Of a DNA stretch of 24,007 nt, positions 1-18,789 are shown piece by piece. Location of the stretch: the IMG/VR virus record IMGVR_UViG_3300049830_000056, positions 1 to 24,007 of that record. One strand, 5' to 3'. A model generated the notes under the pieces. That model did not search any database, was not told where the DNA came from, and saw nothing but the letters and a program-made list of their open reading frames with translations. The stretch comes from a virus. The position numbers and the translations under genes were made by a program. How positions within the stretch are numbered: the stretch's first letter is position 1; each line of letters begins with the position of its first letter.

Positions 1-686
1 ATATTAGCATATTCATTAACATAAGCTTTATAATACTCACTACCAAAAACCCCAGTTAATAAATGGTCAGTATAACCAACTGTGTTTAGTGCCAATTCTC
101 TAATTACACATTGCCGGCAAGCAGCACATGGTTTCCCATCAGCATGATGACACGAAATAGTATTCTCAATAATATCATTGATATCTATATTTCTATATAT
201 ACATTCTTGTAACATAGAAACTTTATTAAGACCCAATTCAGCAATTGGTAACTTTACCATAATATTAGGGCAGAACTGATTTAATACATATTGAAACAGT
301 TTAGAGGTTTCTTCGGCGAATGTATAGTTTTTATCTTTGTGTTTATTAGATACTTCTGTCGCCAGTGCACCCAGCCAAATTTCATCTGGAGTATATTCAC
401 ATGCAGCATATGTTGCTAGAAGTAAGTTCCTGCCAGGAATATAATATTTAGCACCAGGCAAATTGCCACCTGGTTGTTCGACTGCCCCCCCTTTTAGAAA
501 GTCGGGCAATCTATGAATATGAACGTCGCTAGGAAGTCTAGTTACTTCTTCGTCCATGCTTTCGTTATTATGCGAAATATATAGTTTAATGATGTTGTCA
601 GCTGATGTTTCAAACTCAGCAAATTTGGACATAATATAACTGTCCATTCCTCCACTATAGAGGATTACTATCTTCTTTTGTTTCAT
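1..686 (-). CDS. queC: 7-cyano-7-deazaguanine (preQ0) synthase QueC, 3' end outside window
   Basis: QueC converts 7-carboxy-7-deazaguanine (CDG) to preQ0 with ATP and ammonia, the last step of the GTP-to-preQ0 route. 228 residues are visible and the frame is open to the window edge. The N-terminal PP-loop is SGGMDS (residues 11-16). YIPGRN (82-87) matches the conserved family motif. The zinc site is C179-x7-C187-x2-C190-x2-C193, very close to the family pattern. The ATG at 686 is chosen because MKQKKIVILYSGG is a normal QueC start and an AAGGAA-type ribosome site lies upstream. The gene overlaps the end of the HAD-like gene by 32 bases, so translation is probably coupled. The C-terminal end is not visible. 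Identity is secure; a role in DNA modification rather than tRNA queuosine is inferred. Confidence 0.95.
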   Translation of the reverse strand, partial: MKQKKIVILYSGGMDSYIMSKFAEFETSADNIIKLYISHNNESMDEEVTRLPSDVHIHRLPDFLKGGAVEQPGGNLPGAKYYIPGRNLLLATYAACEYTPDEIWLGALATEVSNKHKDKNYTFAEETSKLFQYVLNQFCPNIMVKLPIAELGLNKVSMLQECIYRNIDINDIIENTISCHHADGKPCAACRQCVIRELALNTVGYTDHLLTGVFGSEYYKAYVNEYAN

Positions 687-1056
687 GCCAAACATTTTCC
701 TTCTCAACTAATTCATGCTGCAATAATACCACGTTAACCCAGCCAAGCTGCGATACAACCGCAGCTTGGATTGGATCGTCTTCGAAATGAATTCCAATAT
801 CTATACCATCTTCTCTAAGATTTTGAATAGTAGACTTTTTATGTTCACCAGAAGATTGTCTAGTCTTTTCATCAAATTTTAGTGGATTGAAGTAAACTTT
901 ATTATATATGCCTTTAGAAGTCAACATTTTTCTTGTGTATTCTTCTTCTTCAAATGATCTACCAGTAATTAAAATATCGTTGGGTCCGGGGTAGACTCCA
1001 TTAAAGGAGTCCCCCATATATATTACGCCATCAATATCAAACGAATTAATTCGCAT
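655..1056 (-). CDS. HAD-like phosphatase
   Basis: This 133-aa protein has the HAD-superfamily motif series. Motif I is D7-I-D9-G, motif II is the Thr of ITGRS (T31), motif III Lys is K73 or K74, and motif IV is E92-D93-D94. It has only a minimal cap, so it is a small phosphatase-like enzyme whose substrate cannot be read. The ATG at 1056 is preferred over an upstream in-frame TTG because AAGGAG sits about 10 bases ahead and motif I falls at the usual place near the N-terminus. It overlaps the preceding inositol-phosphate-synthase-like gene by 11 bases and queC by 32 bases, forming a tightly coupled trio. Dephosphorylation of the neighbour's sugar-phosphate product is an attractive guess. Similar small HAD proteins in phages are also annotated as nucleotidases or 3'-phosphatases. 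Confidence 0.75.
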   Translation of the reverse strand: MRINSFDIDGVIYMGDSFNGVYPGPNDILITGRSFEEEEYTRKMLTSKGIYNKVYFNPLKFDEKTRQSSGEHKKSTIQNLREDGIDIGIHFEDDPIQAAVVSQLGWVNVVLLQHELVEKENVWHETKEDSNPL

Positions 1057-2326
1057 AATCGTTTGTCTCCTTCTGGAAACTATACGATAGACTTTCAACT
1101 GTTGGGGTATTATCTTTAAGTTGTTTAGTAGTTAATGGTGTTAAAATGCGTCTAGCTAATGCATCGCATTCAAACTTAGCATCTTCTGTCTTCATTTGTA
1201 ACGGTGGTGTCTTTTGTGTCCAAGCAGAAGCACCTCTTAAATATCCAACAATGCCAAGTTCCGATGCTACCTTACAAAAACGAATTGCAGATACCACAAC
1301 CGAACCCGAATTTGGAGAATCTTGCACTGATAATCTAGCAGTTAGTTCATATCTAGCACCAGCAAAACCATAAGCGACAATATCAAAATTGGCAATCTTG
1401 TTGTCAGAACCTACATATTCACCACCCGGCTTTTGTTGTACTGTCAGACTAGGTCCAGCATATAGCGTCATTCCAGCGATGCTTTCGTCTCTAACTTCGT
1501 TTTGTCCCTTTAGCACATTTTCTTTAGAGATATGCTTTGACTTTAGTCGATATTCTTTAGCCATATTAAGGAAGTCGCAGTTAGCAGTTCTGCCAGTTCT
1601 AATATTCTCTTGTCCTTGAGTAGATCCACAAGCCATATTCATTTGAATGTGTTGTGTTACCATAAGACCAGAATCTAACATGGCACCCTGTAGAACTTCT
1701 GACATCCTAGAAGCTCCCCAACCCGAACGCATATCAGAACCAACGAACGTTAGTCCCGCTTCAATGAAGGCTTTTTCTGTATCTGCGGCTTCTTGTGTAG
1801 ATATTAAAGTTGGGATACAATTAACAAAGTGACACTTAGCTTCTAACGCAGCCTTAACATAAAAGGCAGTAGCTTCGGAAGACCCTACTGGAAGATAGTT
1901 AATAATAACATCGACATTATGATATTTTAATAATTGTACCACTCTATCATAAGATTCGGCTGGGATGGCGCCAGTCCTAAATGACACTTCTTCTGGATAG
2001 TCTAACATATGGGGTGCAATGCCATCAAGCTCTGGTCCCGAATATACTAATGCACCAGGTAATATGCAAGCATCTGTAATTTCAGTTACGTGATTCATCG
2101 CACAATTAGGTTTAGCCCTAAGTGCGTCTTTTAATGGGTGATTTACTTTTCTAATATCAACATCGAAACCACAAACAAACTCAATATCGTTTACTGTATA
2201 TCCTCCAATATCTGGATACATTAAACCTACATTATCATTAGGATTTTCGATGTAATATTGAATTCCCTCTACGAGAGATTTAGCACAATTTCCGACGCCG
2301 ATAATGGCGACCTTGATTTTTTTCAT
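1046..2326 (-). CDS. Myo-inositol-1-phosphate synthase-like protein (actinobacterial type)
   Basis: MIPS turns glucose-6-phosphate into inositol-1-phosphate in an NAD-dependent reaction. This 426-aa protein resembles the short actinobacterial/archaeal form. It has a GVGNCAKSLVEG nucleotide-binding loop near the N-terminus, GGYTVNDIEFVCGFDVD, NYLPVGS, a SKHISK segment and a DSPNSGSVVVSAIR segment, all in family order. Where the family has D-[IL]-K-S with a Lys I recall as catalytic, this protein reads SDMRSGWGAS with Arg, so the chemistry may differ. The ATG at 2326 follows AAAGGAA by about 6 bases; an upstream in-frame TTG would put that site inside the gene, so it is rejected. It is the first gene after a late promoter at 2416-2423 and is followed by the HAD-like gene and queC. 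Its role in the phage is unknown. Confidence 0.85.
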   Translation of the reverse strand: MKKIKVAIIGVGNCAKSLVEGIQYYIENPNDNVGLMYPDIGGYTVNDIEFVCGFDVDIRKVNHPLKDALRAKPNCAMNHVTEITDACILPGALVYSGPELDGIAPHMLDYPEEVSFRTGAIPAESYDRVVQLLKYHNVDVIINYLPVGSSEATAFYVKAALEAKCHFVNCIPTLISTQEAADTEKAFIEAGLTFVGSDMRSGWGASRMSEVLQGAMLDSGLMVTQHIQMNMACGSTQGQENIRTGRTANCDFLNMAKEYRLKSKHISKENVLKGQNEVRDESIAGMTLYAGPSLTVQQKPGGEYVGSDNKIANFDIVAYGFAGARYELTARLSVQDSPNSGSVVVSAIRFCKVASELGIVGYLRGASAWTQKTPPLQMKTEDAKFECDALARRILTPLTTKQLKDNTPTVESLSYSFQKETNDYAN

Positions 2327-2364
2327 TGGTATTCCTTTCAATATATCAGTTGTTTTACGGAATT

Positions 2365-2384
2365 AATTTCCGAAGGCGGAAATT
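2365..2384 (-). other. Perfect 8-bp hairpin in the leader of the MIPS-like gene
   Basis: AATTTCCG and CGGAAATT form a perfect inverted repeat around a 4-base loop. An overlapping alternative pairing (CGGAA with TTCCG, about 2356-2370) could compete with it. It lies in the 98-base gap between folE and the MIPS-like gene, downstream of the late promoter, so it would be in the 5' leader of that transcript. No T-tract follows on the minus strand, which argues against a simple intrinsic terminator. An mRNA-stabilising hairpin or regulatory element is possible. Confidence 0.5.
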
Positions 2385-2415
2385 TGGCTCAGGATAGAGG
2401 TAGCCGCCTATATGG

Positions 2416-2423
2416 TATTTATA
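2416..2423 (-). promoter_or_regulatory. T4-type late promoter for the MIPS-like/HAD/queC genes
   Basis: The minus strand reads TATAAATA, the exact late-promoter box recognised by gp55-RNA polymerase in T4-like phages. It abuts the folE stop codon and sits about 90 bases before the MIPS-like start, in one of the few intergenic gaps of the left operon. Position and perfect match support it. No upstream -35 element is expected for this class. Confidence 0.7.
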
Positions 2424-3107
2424 TCATGCATGACAAGTTTGTGTCTGCATTGCAATATTATCGAAGAATTCTTTTTTAAGGTCTGGGCGCATAAAGCTTC
2501 CTTTTAATACTGTTGTCTGAGTTAAAGAACTATGAGCGTTAATTCCGCGGTTTGTGCAACATCCATGTTCAGCTGCAATATATACAGCTACATCTTGTGA
2601 CTCAGTAGCGGCTTGAATTTCCCGAACAATATTGTTACATAGCTCTTCTTGCAACGTACCGCGTCTTGCACACCATTGAGAAATCCTAACGTATTTCGAC
2701 AAGCCGATAACTTTATGACTTGGAATGATACCGATATAAGCAACACCTGTAACTGGCTGATGGTGGTGGGAGCATTGCGACTTTAATTCGGCTCGAACTA
2801 CCAACATACCTTCGTATTTATCTTCTCCGTCATTAGGAAAAGCAGTGGCAGCTGGTTTCTTTTTATAACGACCTGACATAATCTCATTAAAGTACATCTT
2901 AGCTAGACGTCGAGCAGTACCATGCGAATTGGGATCGTTCTCTCTATCAATTACTAGTGCATCTAAAACACTTTCAAATGCAACAGTAGCTTCATCAATT
3001 AAATTTTCAATATCGCCATCTTCAATGGCAGATGAGATATTATCTCCTGCCCAAAACCTAACATTCTCTTCTTTTAATCTTGTAGCAATAGCTTCGCTTG
3101 TCTTCAT
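2424..3107 (-). CDS. folE: GTP cyclohydrolase I (FolE)
   Basis: FolE opens GTP to 7,8-dihydroneopterin triphosphate, the first step of both folate and 7-deazaguanine synthesis. This 227-aa protein has the usual family length. The zinc ligands are visible: C112-S-H-H115, with C183 in EHGCC, matching Cys-x-x-His and Cys in the E. coli enzyme. HKVIGLSKYVRI, RRGTLQEELC and TNRGI are standard T-fold segments. The ATG at 3107 begins immediately after the TAA of the small membrane-protein gene (TAAATG), suggesting coupled translation. With queD, queE and queC in the same operon its product is most likely channelled to preQ0. The gene is followed directly by a late promoter. Confidence 0.95.
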   Translation of the reverse strand: MKTSEAIATRLKEENVRFWAGDNISSAIEDGDIENLIDEATVAFESVLDALVIDRENDPNSHGTARRLAKMYFNEIMSGRYKKKPAATAFPNDGEDKYEGMLVVRAELKSQCSHHHQPVTGVAYIGIIPSHKVIGLSKYVRISQWCARRGTLQEELCNNIVREIQAATESQDVAVYIAAEHGCCTNRGINAHSSLTQTTVLKGSFMRPDLKKEFFDNIAMQTQTCHA

Positions 3108-3287
3108 TTATACCATCTCTTCAATAATGCCAACTACTTCGGCTGCTAATAGACCTACAGCTAAGATATGGATAGCTGTCATAGCATCCATAGTTACTGC
3201 GGCAATAATAGCAGAAGTAATTCTAATTCCACTCTTTACAAAACTAATAATCTTATGTGCGATTGCGTTTGGGTATTCAGTTTGCAT
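3108..3287 (-). CDS. Small membrane protein between queD and folE
   Basis: This 59-aa protein is not recognised. After a short polar N-terminus (MQTEYPNAIAHKI) it is largely hydrophobic, with a likely amphipathic stretch followed by one or two membrane helices (about residues 20-55) and an acidic tail EEMV. The ATG at 3287 is chosen over one at 3308 because AGGAGA lies 8 bases upstream of 3287. It starts inside the end of queD (11-base overlap) and its stop abuts the folE start, so it is embedded in the pterin/deazaguanine gene run. Nothing shows a link in function. Confidence 0.7.
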   Translation of the reverse strand: MQTEYPNAIAHKIISFVKSGIRITSAIIAAVTMDAMTAIHILAVGLLAAEVVGIIEEMV

Positions 3288-3744
3288 TTGGTCTATCTCC
3301 TGATACATAAGCCATATTACTATCGGTTTCTCTTACTTCTACTCTAGTACACCATACTCTATCTCCATAACCATAAGTAGGGAGAAACTGTTCGTTTACA
3401 TAATCGTAAAGGAATTCGGCAAGTCCTTCACAACCAGTCTTTTCTACAATAGTAATTTTAGCTAGCTTTAAATCGCCTAGCTTTTTAATATCTTCGAAGT
3501 TAGGGTCGTCTTCTGCAAGCAATAGTGCATGGTCAAACCATTCTTCTAACTTGTCTTTTAGTGGACGAAGTGACCCATAGTCTACGGACCAGTTTCGGGC
3601 ATCTAGTTCATTAGTGCCAAATTCAAAATGAAAAGAGAAGGCGTAACCGTGGATTTGATTGCAATGTGAATCTGCTCGCCATTGCCTATATGCACAAGGT
3701 GCAATTTGTCTATATGTCTTTGTGGATGTATATTTATAGGACAT
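3277..3744 (-). CDS. queD: 6-carboxy-tetrahydropterin synthase-like protein (QueD)
   Basis: QueD converts dihydroneopterin triphosphate to 6-carboxytetrahydropterin, the second step to preQ0. This 155-aa T-fold protein keeps the catalytic Cys (C28), H32 of the IHG segment, the D71-H72 pair in WFDHALLL, and Glu in CEGLAE (E106); VRETDSNMAY matches the C-terminal ET motif. Two usual zinc ligands appear changed: the His of the A-H-R motif is Tyr (A-Y19-R) and HGH is HGY (Y34). Phage QueD-like proteins with HGY are familiar to me, the first change less so. The ATG at 3744 overlaps the previous stop as TAATG and follows GGGAAT; an in-frame TTG at 3753 is rejected. The context with folE, queE and queC supports the assignment. 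Confidence 0.88.
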   Translation of the reverse strand: MSYKYTSTKTYRQIAPCAYRQWRADSHCNQIHGYAFSFHFEFGTNELDARNWSVDYGSLRPLKDKLEEWFDHALLLAEDDPNFEDIKKLGDLKLAKITIVEKTGCEGLAEFLYDYVNEQFLPTYGYGDRVWCTRVEVRETDSNMAYVSGDRPNAN

Positions 3745-4100
3745 TATTCCCAATATTCCCTTTCAAGATCTTCAATTCTATTACTTATGTTAATTGGTAG
3801 TATTACATCATCGTAATTTTCGATGTGTCCTAGACTATTTATCTTTCTAAGATATTCAATAAATGGAATACCTTTCCAAGGCAATTCTGGTCTAGGCCAA
3901 ATAGAAAAGCCATCAATCACATTATTGTCATCATCTAGCAACAAACATTCGCATATTAGCATATTATAACAATTAACTACATAACGGCCAATTCTATTTT
4001 GGGAACTGCCGTTATAGTTTAATCTGCCATAGAAAATTTGAGCAGTATCTGCTTCAAGCACTTTACTTTTTGGTTGAACTATCATGTTCTTTTGTCGCAT
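3744..4100 (-). CDS. Small acidic protein, second gene of cassette copy 2
   Basis: This 118-aa protein has no recognised function. Its middle, NMLICECLLLDDDNNVIDGF followed by an L-P-W-K and an IEYL segment, matches the 90-aa protein at 7396-7668 (NMLI..., LVFDDQGKVVDGY, F-K-W-N, ILEHL), so the two are paralogues. Both lie directly downstream of paralogous His-rich genes. The start at 4100 has AAGAG upstream and overlaps the end of the His-rich gene by 38 bases; a second ATG at 4085 is possible. Its stop overlaps the queD start. The acidic character and pairing with a basic partner would allow an immunity- or chaperone-like role, but that is conjecture. Confidence 0.7.
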   Translation of the reverse strand: MRQKNMIVQPKSKVLEADTAQIFYGRLNYNGSSQNRIGRYVVNCYNMLICECLLLDDDNNVIDGFSIWPRPELPWKGIPFIEYLRKINSLGHIENYDDVILPINISNRIEDLEREYWE

Positions 4101-4620
4101 ATGCTCTTATAATATTATAGCTTGCTGGATCTGTTTTATTCCACAAATGATCGACATGATTATCGATATTAGTATGATCAATTGGTAGTTTCTTACCATT
4201 TATTTTTGCTTCGAACTTAACGCCTTTGGGTTTGCTTTTGATAAACTTAACCCAAAGATGTTTGGCACCTACAGATTGTTGCGCATCTGTGAGTAATTCG
4301 CCATGTTCTTTAATATGGTGTTTCATATGATGCACAATATGTTTTACTTCACCAGAACCCTTTACGATATAATTCTGAACATTATTGTTGTTCATTCTAG
4401 AATATTCGTGCGGAATGCCATTTGTTTTATGAAAATAATGATGACCGTCATGATCTTTATAATAAAAATTAGAATTGCCAATTGATCTGCTTTTAACTGC
4501 CGCTAGTTTAGTTTTAAGTTTCTCAATACCAGCTTCCATATTATCCTTTGTGAAAAAGGTATTAATTTGTGGGTTCTCTTGTAGAGCTCTTAGTCTTTGT
4601 TGAAACGTTTTAAATGACAT
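4063..4620 (-). CDS. His-rich basic protein, possible internal head protein, cassette copy 2
   Basis: This 185-aa protein is not recognised by function. The N-terminus MSFKTFQQRLRALQE resembles T4 capsid-targeting leaders and ends in L-Q-E, which fits the gp21 head-protease rule [LI]-x-E. The centre is rich in His and Lys (HHMKHHIKEHGE). The block EL-T-D-x5-G-A-K-x-LW-x2-FIK-x2-P-x2-VKF is shared with the protein at 7665-8195. That block resembles, from memory, a segment in diverse phage GNAT-like or virion proteins, but I would not assign an activity. The ATG at 4620 is used because GGGAG precedes it and the phosphoribosyltransferase stop is 2 bases upstream; an in-frame upstream TTG at 4641 is rejected. 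Confidence 0.75.
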   Translation of the reverse strand: MSFKTFQQRLRALQENPQINTFFTKDNMEAGIEKLKTKLAAVKSRSIGNSNFYYKDHDGHHYFHKTNGIPHEYSRMNNNNVQNYIVKGSGEVKHIVHHMKHHIKEHGELLTDAQQSVGAKHLWVKFIKSKPKGVKFEAKINGKKLPIDHTNIDNHVDHLWNKTDPASYNIIRAYATKEHDSSTKK

Positions 4621-4622
4621 GT

Positions 4623-5099
4623 TTACTCCCAAGGAAAGCAATACCAGCGCAGCTCTTCCGAGCGTTTAATCTTATAGTGATAAAAGTTCGCTGGTGTTTC
4701 CTGATCTTCGTTATAGATCATAGTGGCAATTCTAATGTTATCCATATTTAACGGATCTCTAATCGAACTCTGCCAGTCTGCTAGTAGTTCACGAATGGTA
4801 TCACCGCCATCTAGAATATCGTCAACGATAAGAATTGTCTTACCGGCATTAATATCTTCAGGAACCCAACAGTTACTTTCGTTACCAATAAACGTACTAT
4901 CTCTAGCACTCCATTGAATCATGACTACTGGTAACTTTAGTTTATGGGCAAGATATACTGCCGGAACAGCGCCACCACGAACTATTCCAACAATATAACT
5001 TATTTCTGCTTTAGAGTCAAGCACTTCTTTTGCAATTTTATTAATACCTTCTAGAAATTCCGGATAGGTATAATCAATAATACTGGTGGCGTCAATCAT
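4623..5099 (-). CDS. Purine-type phosphoribosyltransferase
   Basis: This 158-aa enzyme of the type I PRTase fold would join a base to PRPP. The PRPP-binding motif is ILIVDDILDGGDTIREL (about residues 89-105) with the D93-D94 pair, and the loop before it is YIVGIVRGGAVPAVYLAHKL. The short length and layout resemble bacterial xanthine-guanine/hypoxanthine PRTases (Gpt-like). The C-terminal aromatic segment WYCFPWE fits that group. The ATG at 5099 follows AAGGAAA. It lies in the deazaguanine operon between an unknown gene and the second His-rich cassette. A simple purine-salvage role is the default; use of 7-deazaguanine bases as substrate is possible but unproven. Confidence 0.88.
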   Translation of the reverse strand: MIDATSIIDYTYPEFLEGINKIAKEVLDSKAEISYIVGIVRGGAVPAVYLAHKLKLPVVMIQWSARDSTFIGNESNCWVPEDINAGKTILIVDDILDGGDTIRELLADWQSSIRDPLNMDNIRIATMIYNEDQETPANFYHYKIKRSEELRWYCFPWE

Positions 5100-5110
5100 G
5101 TATTATTTCC

Positions 5111-5776
5111 TTACTTCTTAAAGGACTCTAGAACGTCCATAACATCAACGTCTGATTCTGTTGTAATTACTTCTTCTACTTCCACTGCATCAAGATTAGC
5201 TCTGCCAATAGTACCACTTGAAAGGATTCCACTACCAATGCTAATACCGATGCCAGTAATTGATGGGCTTAGTGTACCAGTACTAGCTACTGGGTCTGAC
5301 CAGATATTATATGAATTAACTCTAGGCATAGTCGAAGCAGGTTCTGCGTCTGTCTCCTCAGTAGCGGCAGTTGTTTCCATATTATAAGTTGGTGCATAAT
5401 TATACATCGAACCCATATACTGCTTGACAGAGTTAACAAATACCTTACCAGCTTCAGACGCGGCTTCTAGACTAGGTGCAGTCACAGTACCACTAGCCAT
5501 ATCAATACTAATTAAAATATCACCCTTAGTATTCCAAAGATTGTATGAATTTCTAGAGGGCGCAATTGAATAATTATTAATTGTATCGGTTAAAATACCC
5601 GCTGTAGTAAAATTTAAAGATGGTTCAGCAAATGTATTTTCATACTCTTGTTTGAAAGTTCTTAACTCAGTCGCCGCAGGCAGTGACACCCAATCATATT
5701 CTATATTACAACCTTTAATTGTTACATCTTTCGCAATAACCATATTATTCTCCTCTGATTGTTCTTCTTGGTACAT
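5111..5776 (-). CDS. Unknown 221-aa protein with repeated NSYN[IL]W motif
   Basis: The product is not recognised. It has two short repeats, N-S-Y-N-L-W (about residue 77) and N-S-Y-N-I-W (about residue 155), each following a Pro/Arg turn. A Gly/Ser/Thr-rich stretch (about 165-190) and an acidic C-terminus ending DVLESFKK come after. The composition suggests a secreted or virion beta-structure protein rather than an enzyme. Two starts each have good ribosome sites: 5776 (AAGGAGA, 8-10 bases) and 5743 (AGAGGAGA, about 5 bases), giving 221 or 210 residues. It lies 3 bases after dexA and 11 bases before the phosphoribosyltransferase gene, in the same operon. Confidence 0.65.
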   Translation of the reverse strand: MYQEEQSEENNMVIAKDVTIKGCNIEYDWVSLPAATELRTFKQEYENTFAEPSLNFTTAGILTDTINNYSIAPSRNSYNLWNTKGDILISIDMASGTVTAPSLEAASEAGKVFVNSVKQYMGSMYNYAPTYNMETTAATEETDAEPASTMPRVNSYNIWSDPVASTGTLSPSITGIGISIGSGILSSGTIGRANLDAVEVEEVITTESDVDVMDVLESFKK

Positions 5777-5779
5777 TAA

Positions 5780-6415
5780 TTATATCTCCTTATCTGAAAT
5801 TATCCGTTCGATGCGTTGCATACGCAAAACGTCTGCCGCGATATCGTGGACGGGATTATGAAGTTGAAACATTTCTTTCCATTTGGTTTCATCTGAAATG
5901 GGGCAGATTCCATTAACTATATTCTTAAAATCGAATCTAGTATCTATAAACGTTCTAATATCACGAACTTTCCAGAAGTCCAGTACTTGGTTAACTGCTA
6001 AGTTATCACCATAGACATCAAAAAAATTCCGCTGTAACAATAGTGGATCGAATGTATTACTTCGAGACCACCATCGTTTAACTTTTCTATTATTACTTTT
6101 GATATAATCAGTAAAGTTTTCACAAAACTGTTCTGTAGTAATATCATCTTCACTTGGCTTAATTTGCTTCTTGGCTATTGGTCCTTGTTTGGTCCACCAA
6201 GCTACATCATCTTCTAATGCAGTATAACCACGTTTAAGTTGATGTTTAATATCAAACTTATCGAACTGTGCGTCTGATATAATTTCTTCGAACGTATAGG
6301 GATTATTACTGGCAAACCTATCCCAATCAAATGTATAGTATGCACAATTAACTACAGCACAAGTAAATACGTAAGGTCCAATAGTTTCGTAATCGATAAT
6401 TAAATTTAGCTGCAT
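5780..6415 (-). CDS. dexA: DexA-like 3'-5' exonuclease
   Basis: This 211-aa protein aligns along its length with T4 exonuclease A (227 aa), a DEDD-family 3'-5' DNA exonuclease that degrades host DNA. Visible metal-binding motifs are I-D-Y-E near residue 9 (T4 has IDFE) and the late H-D-I-A-A-D motif near the C-terminus. The segments WWTKQGPIAKKQIKPSEDD, NTFDPLLL and VRDIRTFID match T4 counterparts closely. The ATG at 6415 lies 3 bases after the queE stop. No clear ribosome site is visible, so translation is probably coupled to queE. In a phage with modified DNA, selective decay of unmodified host DNA by DexA would fit, though that is inference. Confidence 0.9.
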   Translation of the reverse strand: MQLNLIIDYETIGPYVFTCAVVNCAYYTFDWDRFASNNPYTFEEIISDAQFDKFDIKHQLKRGYTALEDDVAWWTKQGPIAKKQIKPSEDDITTEQFCENFTDYIKSNNRKVKRWWSRSNTFDPLLLQRNFFDVYGDNLAVNQVLDFWKVRDIRTFIDTRFDFKNIVNGICPISDETKWKEMFQLHNPVHDIAADVLRMQRIERIISDKEI

Positions 6416-6418
6416 AGG

Positions 6419-7359
6419 TTATCGTCCAATTTCGTTGCCAAAGATCGAAACGTGTACTCGAGCCGATACATTATAACCAAGCGATAATGCTCGTAGTGTT
6501 ACTTCCTTAGCTACCGCTTGCTGGCCTGCTTCAGTTGCACCCACTGGCATAATGAATACAGGATACGAAACGCCAGCTGCCCTAAATTCCTTTACAACTC
6601 GATCCAGTTCGTCCCACTGTCTATCTTCTGGTCCTAGAACAAATTTAAGTTGCCCCTTAGTAGAAATATTAGAATAGCTCTTAACTACTTCTGGCTTAAT
6701 TGCCTTTTCATTTCGTTCACCCGATACGGTAAATAGCTTAGGAGATACAGAGAACATAATACGAGTATATTGACTGATATCCTTGAAATAATCAGAAAAT
6801 TCTTTGGTAAGATTTTGTGTGCCATTAGTTTCAAAAGTAACATACCTTGGTAGATTATTAGAACGTCGCATTGTAGTACCGGGCATAATACCGCCTGTAT
6901 ACTTTTCAAACTCCTGCATAAGAGCTATAGTATCTCTTTGTGACTTAGCTAATAGTGGTTCGCCACCAGTAAAGCACATATGCGTCTCTGATTGCGAATA
7001 ATCATTTAGGAATGTACCATAAGGATTGTGATCTGCTGTCATTAAGTCCATTAACTTCTTGGCTAAGTCCTCTGCCGTATCTGAATGTGATAGGCATTTA
7101 AACTTTTTCGACCAAGTATAAGACGAATCACAACCATAATCCCAAACAGGAAGATCTTCTAATCTATTTACCAAAGCTACATCAAAGTCTTTATATGGCA
7201 ATATATAGGTTTCTGGATTAGTTGGATCTTTTTGCCCGAAGCCCGAACATTGGAGGTTACATCCCCAGTAACGTAACCAGACTGTATTACAGCCGGTGTA
7301 CATACCTTCTCCTTGAAGACTAGAGAAAAAAACTCAGAATAAGAAATTAAATTACTCAC
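6419..7359 (-). CDS. queE: 7-carboxy-7-deazaguanine synthase QueE, split by a frameshift at codon 11
   Basis: QueE is a radical-SAM enzyme that makes CDG, the third step to preQ0. Downstream motifs are clear: RYWGCNLQC, GCDSSYTW, FTGGEP, FETNGT, SVSPKL and an IMPVG segment. A GTG at 7359, 5 bases after AAAGGAGGT, encodes MSNLISYSEFF and then meets a run of seven T (7332-7326). The family-specific S-S-L-Q-G-E-G follows only in the -1 frame, joined to the main frame that continues to 6419. That main frame has a TGA at 7336-7334, so it cannot be entered from farther upstream. Joined, the protein is about 313 aa. The Fe-S cysteines read C-x3-C-x38-C. An ATG at 7303 with AAGGAGAAGGT ahead could start a version without QGEG, which I expect to be inactive. 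Either programmed -1 shifting, a mutation or a sequence error explains this. Confidence 0.88.
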
Positions 7360-7364
7360 TCTGC

Positions 7365-7373
7365 ACCTCCTTT
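7365..7373 (-). promoter_or_regulatory. Very strong ribosome binding site of queE
   Basis: The minus strand reads AAAGGAGGT, a near-complete anti-16S match, 5 bases before the GTG at 7359. It decides that translation begins in the upstream frame, which encodes the first 11 QueE residues and not the frame of the main body. Most genes nearby use weaker AAGGAA or AAGGAG sites. Confidence 0.85.
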
Positions 7374-7668: not shown

Positions 7669-8195
7669 AGTCTAGTCGCATGTATTCTATGTTTATCATT
7701 TAGTTTGATATTATCGCCCCAAAGATCTTCTTTATGTATATTGGCAGCATTAACTAGTCTTGGTTTTTGATATTGACTAGAGTGTGTAAATTTAATATCA
7801 GGAGAGTCTTTAATAAAGTTAGTCCATAACTTCTTAGAACCACTAGTGTGGAATACGTCTGAATGTAATTCATTATGTCTATAAATGTGATATGCCATAG
7901 ATCGACTAATATTCTTAGCAGAACCAGCAGGTCCTTTCGCTACATATTCTTGGTTGTGAGTAGGTCCTACAACAGATATACTGTGTACCCTAGTACCTAA
8001 AATACTAGGTGATGTGTGAAAATATATAGTCTTATCGTCATGTTCGATATATTTGTGATTAGGACCAATGCTAGTCCAAGGCTTATTTGATTTAATAGTC
8101 TTAACTAATTCCTTAGTTTTCTTAGCCATAAGATCTTTACTATCACCAGGTGAGTGATAAGGCATCTCTCTTAGGAATTGTTTAAATGATTTCAC
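7665..8195 (-). CDS. His-rich basic protein, possible internal head protein, cassette copy 1
   Basis: This 176-aa protein starts with MKSFKQFLRE. That closely resembles the capsid-targeting leader of T4 internal proteins (MKTYQEFIAE), including a terminal [LI]-x-E that fits gp21 cleavage. Its body shares with the 185-aa protein at 4063-4620 a YVAKG-type segment, a His-rich HIYRHNEL helix and a G-S-K-K-LW-x2-FIK-x-SP block. The protein is basic. It starts with GTG overlapping the def stop as GTGA, with only a weak AGAAGA site, so coupling is likely. Packaging into the head and delivery into the host is inferred from the leader alone; the body has no assigned activity. Confidence 0.75.
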   Translation of the reverse strand: MKSFKQFLREMPYHSPGDSKDLMAKKTKELVKTIKSNKPWTSIGPNHKYIEHDDKTIYFHTSPSILGTRVHSISVVGPTHNQEYVAKGPAGSAKNISRSMAYHIYRHNELHSDVFHTSGSKKLWTNFIKDSPDIKFTHSSQYQKPRLVNAANIHKEDLWGDNIKLNDKHRIHATRL

Positions 8196-8689
8196 TTGTT
8201 TCTTCTGTTTAGTATTTTCATTTTCTTCTTAGCTTGCTCTTTGTGATAAGCAGTTGCTTGGTCGAACATGCATAGTCCGTCGAGATGGGAATTTTCGTGC
8301 TGAAACGCGCGAGCCGTAATTCCGTCAAATACCTTGGTCGTAACTTCACCATTAGGATCACTATAACGGACTTTAATCTTCTTAGGACGTCTAACCTTTA
8401 CAACTAACCCGGGATAACTTAGGCAACCTTCTTCTAAATATAGCTGCTCGTTCGATACATCGATTATCTTGGGATTAAAGCATGGAATAAGCTCTGTACC
8501 ATATAATACAAATACTCTAGTATTAAACCCTACTTGGTTTGCTGCTAATCCAATCCCATTATAGTGCATCATAGTTTCTGCTAGGTTACTAACAAAGTCT
8601 AGTGGATCCACAATGGGATTGGAAAAGTCAAAAGGATCCAATACCGTTTTTAAAATAGGATCATTATTTGGTACTAGATCATATAACAT
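8192..8689 (-). CDS. def: Peptide deformylase
   Basis: This 165-aa metalloenzyme removes the formyl group from new proteins. All three family motifs are intact: GIGLAANQ (45-52), EEGCLS with metal ligand C89, and QHENSH with H131, E132 and H135. The length is that of a full bacterial enzyme, slightly short at the C-terminus as in other phage deformylases. It is the first gene of the left operon, 12 bases downstream of the -10 box of a sigma70-like promoter at 8701-8729. The ATG at 8689 has a modest GAGAG site; the messenger leader would be very short. It overlaps the next gene as GTGA. Phage deformylases are usually explained as boosting processing of phage or photosystem proteins. Confidence 0.95.
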   Translation of the reverse strand: MLYDLVPNNDPILKTVLDPFDFSNPIVDPLDFVSNLAETMMHYNGIGLAANQVGFNTRVFVLYGTELIPCFNPKIIDVSNEQLYLEEGCLSYPGLVVKVRRPKKIKVRYSDPNGEVTTKVFDGITARAFQHENSHLDGLCMFDQATAYHKEQAKKKMKILNRRNK

Positions 8690-11344: not shown

Positions 11345-12413
11345 TTAAACTCCTTGGTGTAAGGCTTCATTATATAGATCTGCCAATAATTTGTCAAGAC
11401 TTTTCTTTTCAACTGTAGTTTCTATTTGCTCTACTACTTTACGAAGTATAGTAAGTGTATCTTCAGCTTCGTCTACAATATCATCAACATCTTCTAGATT
11501 AATGTTGAGTTTATCCTCTAGAACTTGTATATCAATAACGCCGGACTCTTCTAGCTTAGTAATAAACATATCAAACCAATAAGGATTATTTTTGTTATTA
11601 ATTACTACTTTAACATAACTTCCTTTGTAAGAAGAAACGTCCATATCCATAAAGTCTTGCAGTTCTTTATTGCTATCATCATAGAAAATTTTAGTGAACA
11701 TCATAAACGGATTTCGAATAAACGTTATCTCGCGAGTTTCTGTATCAAAGATGTGAAACCCTCTTGGATCATTAAAATCTGACCAAGACATTTCATATGG
11801 TGTACCTAGATAGTTAATATTACCACGACTTGATTTATGGTGATAGTGCCCTGAGCATACAATATCGAACTTGCTAAACAGTTTAACGTCCATGCCGTGA
11901 TCATTAAACGAGCCACGATGCATTTCAAACCCAGCTAGTTCTAGATGTCCTAATAAGATAGGCGCATCTGTCTCTTCGACAAACGACATCATCTTACCAT
12001 AGTTACTATTATTAACCCATGGTAGCAAAGCAATCTTTAAATCATCAATGACAAGATGACTAGGTTCATTTGCATGTACTGTTATATTGGGATATTCGTT
12101 TAATAGTAACTCGGGTGAATTAACGTGGTTTGAGTCTTTATAGAACACATCATGATTACCAACAAAGGTAATTAGATTGATATTCTTTTCTTTACAAGGA
12201 TCGAAGAAGTATTTACGTGCCTTATATAAAGTTAGAAAGTTAATATATTTCCTTCGCTCGAACAAATCCCCTAACTGTATAACAGTAGAGATATTATTAG
12301 CTTCTAAATAAGGAAATAGTGATTGTGAATAGAATTTTTCAAAGTAGTCATGGAACGCTAAGTTATCGTTGCGCGCTCCGAAAGTGTGTATCACCAAGAA
12401 GACAAATCTTCAT
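11345..12413 (-). CDS. 47: gp47 recombination endonuclease subunit (Mre11/SbcD-like), split by a frameshift at codon 11
   Basis: gp47 is the metallophosphoesterase nuclease partner of gp46. The ATG at 12413 (AAAGGAGGT 8 bases upstream) encodes M-K-I-C-L-L-G-D-T-H-F, the expected GDxH metal site (D8, H10). At TTT (12383-12381) the frame would continue to a stop five codons later. One base on (+1), the sequence resumes as F-G-A-R-N-D-N and runs to 11345. The remaining nuclease motifs are intact: LGDLFERR, VGNHD, LGHLEL and SGHYHH. The joined length is about 355 aa, against 339 in T4. Without the first 10 codons two metal ligands would be missing, so the downstream frame alone is unlikely to be a working nuclease. 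Slippage of tRNA-Phe from TTT to TTC before a CGG codon would restore it; mutation or a sequence error are alternatives. Confidence 0.9.
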
Positions 12414-12421
12414 AAGCGATA

Positions 12422-12430
12422 ACCTCCTTT
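12422..12430 (-). promoter_or_regulatory. Very strong ribosome binding site of gene 47, partly in a hairpin
   Basis: AAAGGAGGT lies 8 bases before the ATG at 12413 and fixes initiation in the frame that encodes the GDxH motif. An upstream CTCCT (minus strand, 12443-12439) can pair with AGGAG (12428-12424) across a 10-base loop, which could mask the site. The pairing is only 5 bp, so any control by it is tentative. Confidence 0.7.
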
Positions 12431-17733: not shown

Positions 17734-17915
17734 TGCTGTTTAACATTATCATTGGCGTACTAGCATATATTGCTATTGGCTTCTTTTTTCTTGGGCTATT
17801 TATTGGTGATGGTAAGCAACCACACAAAGATTATGTATTAGTATTGTTAATGTGGCCAGCAATCATATTAATTGCACTAGGGCTGCTGATCCGCGACGTT
17901 ACACATGATTCTTAA
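17733..17915 (+). CDS. Small two-helix membrane protein
   Basis: This 60-aa protein has two hydrophobic helices, about residues 3-25 and 34-53, joined by a polar loop G-D-G-K-Q-P-H-K-D. The ATG at 17733 overlaps the previous stop, and the C-terminus overlaps the nucleotidyltransferase start by 11 bases, so all three genes are coupled. No family is recognised. Confidence 0.7.
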   Translation: MLFNIIIGVLAYIAIGFFFLGLFIGDGKQPHKDYVLVLLMWPAIILIALGLLIRDVTHDS

Positions 17916-18789
17916 AAAGCTAACCAAAGCCCAAGTAGCACACCCTCCATCGTGGCTACCAGACAATACTCATTATATGACTATAATGGGTTCGGATGCC
18001 TATGGTGTATCGTCAGACAGTTCTGATATTGACGTCTATGGATTTTGTATGCCACCTAAGGATATGGTGTTTCCCCATCTACGTGGTGAAATTCCTGGGT
18101 TTGGTACTCAAATTAAAAGATTTGAAGTATGGCAAGAGCATCACTTAAACCAGCCAGGAACGGATAGGGAGTATGATTTTTCTATCTACTCTATTGTAAA
18201 GTATTTTCAACTGTGTATGGAAAACAATCCTAACATGGTTGATAGTCTATTTACGCCGAATAGATGTGTGTTGCATCAGACACCTGTTGCTGTTATGGTA
18301 AGAGAGAACCGTAAACTATTTTTGTGTAAGAAGTCGTTTCATACATTTAAAGGATATAGTTACGCTCAGTTAGCCAAGATTAAAGCTAAGAAGAATGCAG
18401 AAAATCCAAAGCGAGCAGCTGATATTGCTAAGTATGGGTTCGATCTTAAGATGGCCTACCATGTAGTTAGACTAGCTAATGAATGTCATCAGATATTAGA
18501 AGAAGGTGATCTCGATTTAGAGCGTAGTCGCGAGCAGTTAAAGAGTATTAGGCGCGGTGATTGGACCTTTGCTCAAATCGAAGAGTATTTCGAACGTTAT
18601 GAACGACTGCTTAGTGATATCTATGCTAAGTCAGAACTACCACATTCACCTAGAGAAGAAGAGATTAAGGACTTGTTGCTTAAATGTCTTGAGCAACATT
18701 ATGGCTCTTTAGATCAAGTTATTAAACGGCAGTTACCTGTTGATAAGTTACTAAACGAAATAAGTGCTATTGTGGAGAAGTATAGGTGA
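17905..18789 (+). CDS. Nucleotidyltransferase of the polymerase-beta superfamily
   Basis: This 294-aa protein has the signature G29-S-D-A-Y-G then S-D41-I-D43-V-Y-G-F, i.e. G-S followed by D-x-D metal ligands as in minimal nucleotidyltransferases. The rest is helical and basic, including YSYAQLAKIKAKKNAENPKR and a conserved-looking K-M-A-Y-H-V-V-R-L segment that I associate with a phage/bacterial family annotated simply as predicted nucleotidyltransferase. The target (RNA, protein or antibiotic-like small molecule) is unknown. The ATG at 17905 lies inside the preceding gene's end, and the next gene overlaps it as GTGA. Similar proteins are common in large myoviruses. Confidence 0.85.
   Translation: MILKKLTKAQVAHPPSWLPDNTHYMTIMGSDAYGVSSDSSDIDVYGFCMPPKDMVFPHLRGEIPGFGTQIKRFEVWQEHHLNQPGTDREYDFSIYSIVKYFQLCMENNPNMVDSLFTPNRCVLHQTPVAVMVRENRKLFLCKKSFHTFKGYSYAQLAKIKAKKNAENPKRAADIAKYGFDLKMAYHVVRLANECHQILEEGDLDLERSREQLKSIRRGDWTFAQIEEYFERYERLLSDIYAKSELPHSPREEEIKDLLLKCLEQHYGSLDQVIKRQLPVDKLLNEISAIVEKYR

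Follow-up and report, generated by a model that had tools for sequence, protein, structure and literature searches.

Frame break at a T run in a phage queE gene and a conserved +1 site in gp47: candidate recoding behind strong translation starts

How could a complete QueE enzyme be produced from a gene whose start codon and catalytic body lie in different reading frames? This question is raised by queE of an environmental phage represented by a single IMG/VR record (IMGVR_UViG_3300049830_000056), whose 24,007 bases (hereafter the window) were analysed; both queE and gp47, a second gene with a frame break, are on the minus strand. Our reading is that queE is probably, if by no means certainly, expressed by slippage at a run of seven T (T7), and gp47, whose +1 shift site is conserved in many phages, may offer a precedent in the same genome. 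The features of the queE locus are as follows.

7365..7373, minus strand: queE Shine-Dalgarno (SD) sequence AAAGGAGGT, ranking first among about 35 gene starts of the window (-12.9 kcal/mol)
7357..7359, minus strand: queE start codon GTG, 0 frame; the N-terminus SYSEFF aligns with YYSEIF of the family
7326..7332, minus strand: T7 run, proposed slip site (GAG TTT TTT TCT), at the same place as the T12-T20 runs of other phage queE genes
7177..7359, minus strand: 0-frame open reading frame of queE, 60 codons, the product if no slip occurs (from the reading frames)
6419..7325, minus strand: QueE body in the -1 frame, from S-S-L-Q-G-E-G to the stop; the first in-frame start is ATG 7303, after QGEG

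The reading frames of queE

A preliminary description of this DNA had stated that a strong SD and GTG 7359 open the peptide MSNLISYSEFF, that the QGEG motif and the rest of QueE lie in the -1 frame after the T7 run (7332-7326), and that the QueE frame has no earlier start. On re-reading the sequence, all three statements proved exact to the base. The 0 frame from GTG 7359 reads GTG AGT AAT TTA ATT TCT TAT TCT GAG TTT TTT TCT and stops at 7179-7177. The QueE frame reads TGA(7336) GTT TTT TTC TCT AGT CTT CAA GGA GAA GGT ATG(7303); it is closed by the TGA at 7336-7334, contains no ATG, GTG, or TTG between this stop and ATG 7303, and is then stop-free for 294 codons, down to 6419. The substrate-binding QGEG is in frame with the QueE body and not with any start codon. 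A run of five or eight T would restore one continuous frame, as had been claimed: five T give the exact family length (E-x-x-x-S), and eight T, or a -1 shift, add one Phe.

The 294-residue body matches phrog_2076 (QueE-like radical SAM; E 2.8e-43, profile positions 27-245 of 247), while a Pfam search gave no match and a PDB search with the single QueE sequence returned no QueE. It is 58% identical to its closest relative among 80 viral homologs (L001). Since these 80 relatives read YSEIF[HNY]SIQGEG or near variants in one frame through the break point, the 0-frame SYSEFF represents the missing QueE N-terminus. The TGGEP and TFETNGTQ motifs and the cluster cysteines of the family are retained in the -1 frame body, and the three 4Fe-4S cysteines (C15, C19, and C58) are invariant in the alignment, the third being shifted by an insertion as in all aligned phage relatives. 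These phage QueEs (alignment over 6422-7303, minus strand) have C-x3-C, followed after some 39 residues by a third conserved cysteine (GCDSS/GCDSY), in place of C-x3-C-x2-C. The importance that the preliminary description had attached to QGEG is borne out by Escherichia coli QueE, in which Q13 and E15 of this motif participate in substrate binding (PMC11142719).

QueE, a 7-carboxy-7-deazaguanine synthase, acts with FolE, QueD, and QueC to make preQ0, from which the 7-deazaguanine bases of phage DNA derive (PMC6884629). The window has intact copies of the other three genes of this pathway (queC, folE, and queD), which makes the pathway look selected. The cluster formed by the four (1-7373, minus strand) also includes a phosphoribosyltransferase gene (4623-5099) and, at 1046-2326, a gene for a protein resembling inositol-1-phosphate synthase. 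No DpdA-type transferase could be recognized in the window proteins that were searched.

Strong starts and the conserved +1 site in gp47

The two strongest SDs among the approximately 35 starts belong to queE (-12.9 kcal/mol) and gp47 (-12.3 kcal/mol), followed by a third at -9.3 kcal/mol; three start coordinates in this list, including that of gp47, are off by at least one base, which is unlikely to alter the ranking. The chance that these two genes form the top pair is 1/595, and that of queE given gp47 is about 1/34. In-frame queE genes have a mean SD energy of only -3.4 kcal/mol, and just one of 52 comes close to the window gene (-12.3 kcal/mol). queE and gp47 also share an identical SD, and both shifts fall at codon 11. 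Taken together, the top SDs and the common codon position favour deliberate recoding of queE over a random break, although this comparison concerns one site in one genome. The gp47 locus is organized as follows.

12422..12430, minus strand: gp47 SD AAAGGAGGT, second strongest in the window (-12.3 kcal/mol)
12381..12413, minus strand: gp47 N-terminus MKICLLGDTHF, from ATG 12413 to codon 11 TTT (from the sequence)
12378..12383, minus strand: gp47 +1 shift site TTT C GG; C 12380 is skipped, and the 0 frame continues with CGG to the stop codon TAA 12365-12363
11345..12379, minus strand: gp47 body (SbcD/Mre11-like nuclease) in the +1 frame, GARNDN... (from sequence and profile)

A +1 shift is needed after codon 11 of gp47 (CAC TTT C|GGA GCG CGC), and the same break is found in a relative that is 57% identical (L085). 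The site pattern matched 94 viral contigs, all of which (94/94) proved to be gp47 with the break; the sequences were thinned to 58 lineages. A search that left the base after TTT free covered 67 distinct genes, in which the additional base was C 50 times and T 17 times, and never A or G. This restriction to pyrimidines is in line with a need for tRNA-Phe to re-pair on UUC or UUU. A median of four codons separates the site from the 0-frame stop (84 genes). Initiation differs as well: the mean SD energy is -10.8 kcal/mol in shifted and -4.2 kcal/mol in in-frame gp47 genes (p 4e-8; the in-frame sample is small), and AGGAG or GGAGG precedes 70 of 78 shifted but none of 12 in-frame genes. Shifted and in-frame states are interleaved on the gene tree, with seven changes. 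No Arg codon is used less often in the window than CGG (1.8 per 1000). Downstream RNA structure is absent on average across the 58 lineages (mean z -0.3), whereas the hairpin of the window's own gp47 has a z of -2.2.

Among isolates, Caulobacter phage Cr30 carries the site (GAT ATT CAT TTT CGG AAC), and gp47 is annotated as continuous in Melnitz-3, HTVC008M, Mosig, and DLP_6. Owing to the +1 site, Cr30 gp47 (L301, 601-715) is annotated from a downstream start, and its true N-terminus is absent from the record. We found no report of gp47 recoding in the open-licence literature. The UUU-[C/U]GG site of gp47 is widespread and conserved and seems not to have been described before. It provides much firmer evidence of programmed recoding than queE and is the more important result; judged by sequence conservation, its UUU-CGG form at codon 11 in the window is a precedent for recoding after a strong start in the same genome.

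T runs at the same codon of other queE genes and competing explanations

If queE is expressed by slippage, ribosomes would start at GTG 7359 behind the very strong SD and translate eleven codons to Phe-Phe; a minority would slip into the -1 frame at T7 to produce full-length QueE (SYSEFFFSSLQGEG...), and the remainder would yield a dead-end product of 60 residues. The slip may be a movement of P-site tRNA-Phe back from UUU to UUU at GAG UUU UUU UCU, or RNA polymerase may add one U. Both routes would give the same protein, SEFFFSSLQGEG, one residue above family length. A low slip yield would be offset by the very strong SD, as seems to be the case for gp47. We infer that slippage supplies enough enzyme, and likewise the direction and mechanism of the slip. 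Bacterial RNA polymerase has been reported to slip only at runs of at least seven T, with insertion commoner than deletion (PMC6260861); T7 is this minimum length, and insertion is the direction that queE needs.

Comparison of the T run across queE genes, which had been suggested in the preliminary description, gave a divided answer: all relatives of the same subfamily are in frame, and a distant queE subfamily has runs of T12-T20 at this very codon. Among 162 distinct queE starts, 153 of 154 with a run of six T or fewer are in frame, whereas six of eight with seven or more are broken, against one of 154 with shorter runs (Fisher p 8e-9). The lone exception with a short run (L071, around 2930-3000) has no in-frame ATG or GTG upstream of YYYSETFNSIQGEG; it possibly has an unusual start codon or another break. 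Apart from the window, the starts with long runs belong to the distant subfamily VSE-[T run]-S[IL]QGEGRYMGVPSIFLRTFGCNF, in which runs of 12, 13, 14, 15, 16, and 20 T are located at exactly the codon of the window T7 in six lineages. In each of these loci (contigs L257, L258, L262, L263, L264, L265, L266, L267, L269, L276, and L277 carry this subfamily) the T run is the only A/T run of at least nine bases. On the tree, poly-T queEs are placed among in-frame queEs far from the clade of the window, which implies more than one origin of T runs at this codon. Their lengths, which are uncertain by about one base in assemblies, fall both in and out of frame in otherwise intact genes, and such indifference to frame is what transcriptional slippage would allow. 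Two in-frame members (L262 and L269) have T15, which suggests that extra Phe residues are tolerated at the slip point. Slippage of tRNA-Phe at T7 had been considered plausible; that the run is slippery, whether for the ribosome or for RNA polymerase, gains weight from the poly-T subfamily and the conserved tRNA-Phe site of gp47.

Several observations weigh against expression by slippage. No conserved shift was found in the same queE subfamily (all 80 relatives fetched are in frame), so that conservation, by which programming is normally demonstrated, is lacking at the exact queE site. Slippage was below 1% at such runs in the gene measured (PMC6260861), and T7 is short. In E. coli, U_UUU_UUU is far less prone to -1 shifting than A_AAA_AAG (PMC5009743). 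The candidate stimulatory hairpin after T7 (-20.7 kcal/mol, z -1.6) is not significant, the -1 product is one residue longer than the QueE family, and homopolymers attract mutations and assembly errors too. Searches for further cases were also negative: a scan of viral contigs found no other contig with a queE of the same 11-nt spacing, megablast of the queE locus in phages gave no match, and the T7-QGEG pattern was absent from bacterial and archaeal genome contigs. Near relatives of the window may be missing from the collections, and little can therefore be concluded about its own population from the lack of close queE relatives. No report of queE frameshifting was found in the open-licence literature.

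The best surviving alternative, which we regard as unlikely, is a recent real frameshift, i.e., a slippage mutant or phase-variable allele in which T5 or T8 is active, T7 is off, and queE is inactive in this phage. Many in-frame queEs are T-rich at the site (T4-T6), which would make it an indel hot spot, and run length may vary between near-identical phages, as T12 in L265 and T13 in L277/L258 are found on contigs that are 99.96% identical; the lack of a conserved shift in the subfamily also fits. Against this alternative, the queE SD is the strongest in the window, unlike those of in-frame queEs, the rest of the gene and of the preQ0 pathway is intact, and run lengths of both kinds persist in otherwise intact poly-T queEs.

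It is less probable still that the break is a sequencing or assembly error in a homopolymer of a metagenomic contig and that the real queE is one continuous frame. The position of the break in a homopolymer and the single IMG/VR record are in line with such an error. However, seven bases make a short run for a consensus error in a short-read assembly, and the only other break noticed in window genes, that of gp47, is conserved in over 90 other contigs and the isolate Cr30, which leaves the contig with no further sign of indel errors. The idea of a contig full of indels was rejected since this sole other break is conserved elsewhere. Finally, translation restart at ATG 7303, with the 294-residue protein as the working form, is very improbable: the SD-like AAGGAG five bases upstream (-8.5 kcal/mol) merely represents the QGEG codons, and the product would lack this motif, which relatives keep and two residues of which bind substrate in E. 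coli QueE.

Implications and comparison with known systems

More generally, we tentatively suggest that large tailed phages might deliberately switch expression by recoding just behind a very strong start, in gp47 by a conserved +1 tRNA-Phe slip at UUU-[C/U]GG in many T4-like lineages and in queE by slippage on T runs with at least two origins at the same codon. If this is true, the output of a DNA nuclease and a base-modification enzyme would be linked to the state of translation or transcription in the infected cell, and recoding could set the dosage of preQ0-based base modification and of a recombination nuclease in phages. Annotation pipelines would then truncate QueE and gp47 in many phages and lose their catalytic N-termini, and slip sites resembling those described chiefly in PA-X and prfB would become available for testing in bacterial systems. 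The window also encodes a peptide deformylase (8192-8689, minus strand) and an RlaP-type nucleotidyltransferase for RNA repair (17905-18789, plus strand).

As a full-length radical-SAM QueE-like protein in a folE-queD-queE-queC set, the QueE studied here resembles the phage QueEs of phrog_2076 (KVP40, nt-1, and Ahp1), but differs in that its first eleven residues are encoded in another frame; phages with 7-deazaguanine DNA have such a gene set (PMC6884629). Transcriptional slippage by which genes with a broken frame are rescued (insect endosymbionts, Shigella spa13, Citrobacter tssM, and IS elements) is similar in having a homopolymer in a conserved gene, run lengths that either keep or break the frame, and an undamaged frame downstream; the T12-T20 queEs fit this poly(A/T) type best. 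Such slippage was unreported for queE or any phage base-modification gene in the literature searched, and the window run has only seven T and lies behind an unusually strong SD. Programmed -1 frameshifting (dnaX, IS3 transposases, and phage tail chaperones) shares with queE its net -1 direction and its location on a run of identical bases. However, queE lacks a tandem X_XXY_YYZ heptamer with a perfect P-site match (GAG UUU UUU UCU), a clear downstream stimulator, and conservation within its subfamily, and its unshifted product is a short dead end.

For gp47, the nearest described site is UCC_UUU_CGU of influenza A PA-X, where a +1 shift involves tRNA-Phe on UUU, which is followed by C and a rare CGN codon, and its re-pairing on UUC (PMC3498833), i.e., the same layout of tRNA-Phe, UUU, and CGN. 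Bacterial prfB is similar in shifting early in the gene. In contrast to both, gp47 is a phage nuclease gene with CGG or UGG rather than a stop in the A site and CAY as the E-site codon, and an SD is absent next to the shift site, whereas the initiation SD, some 40 nt upstream, is very strong.
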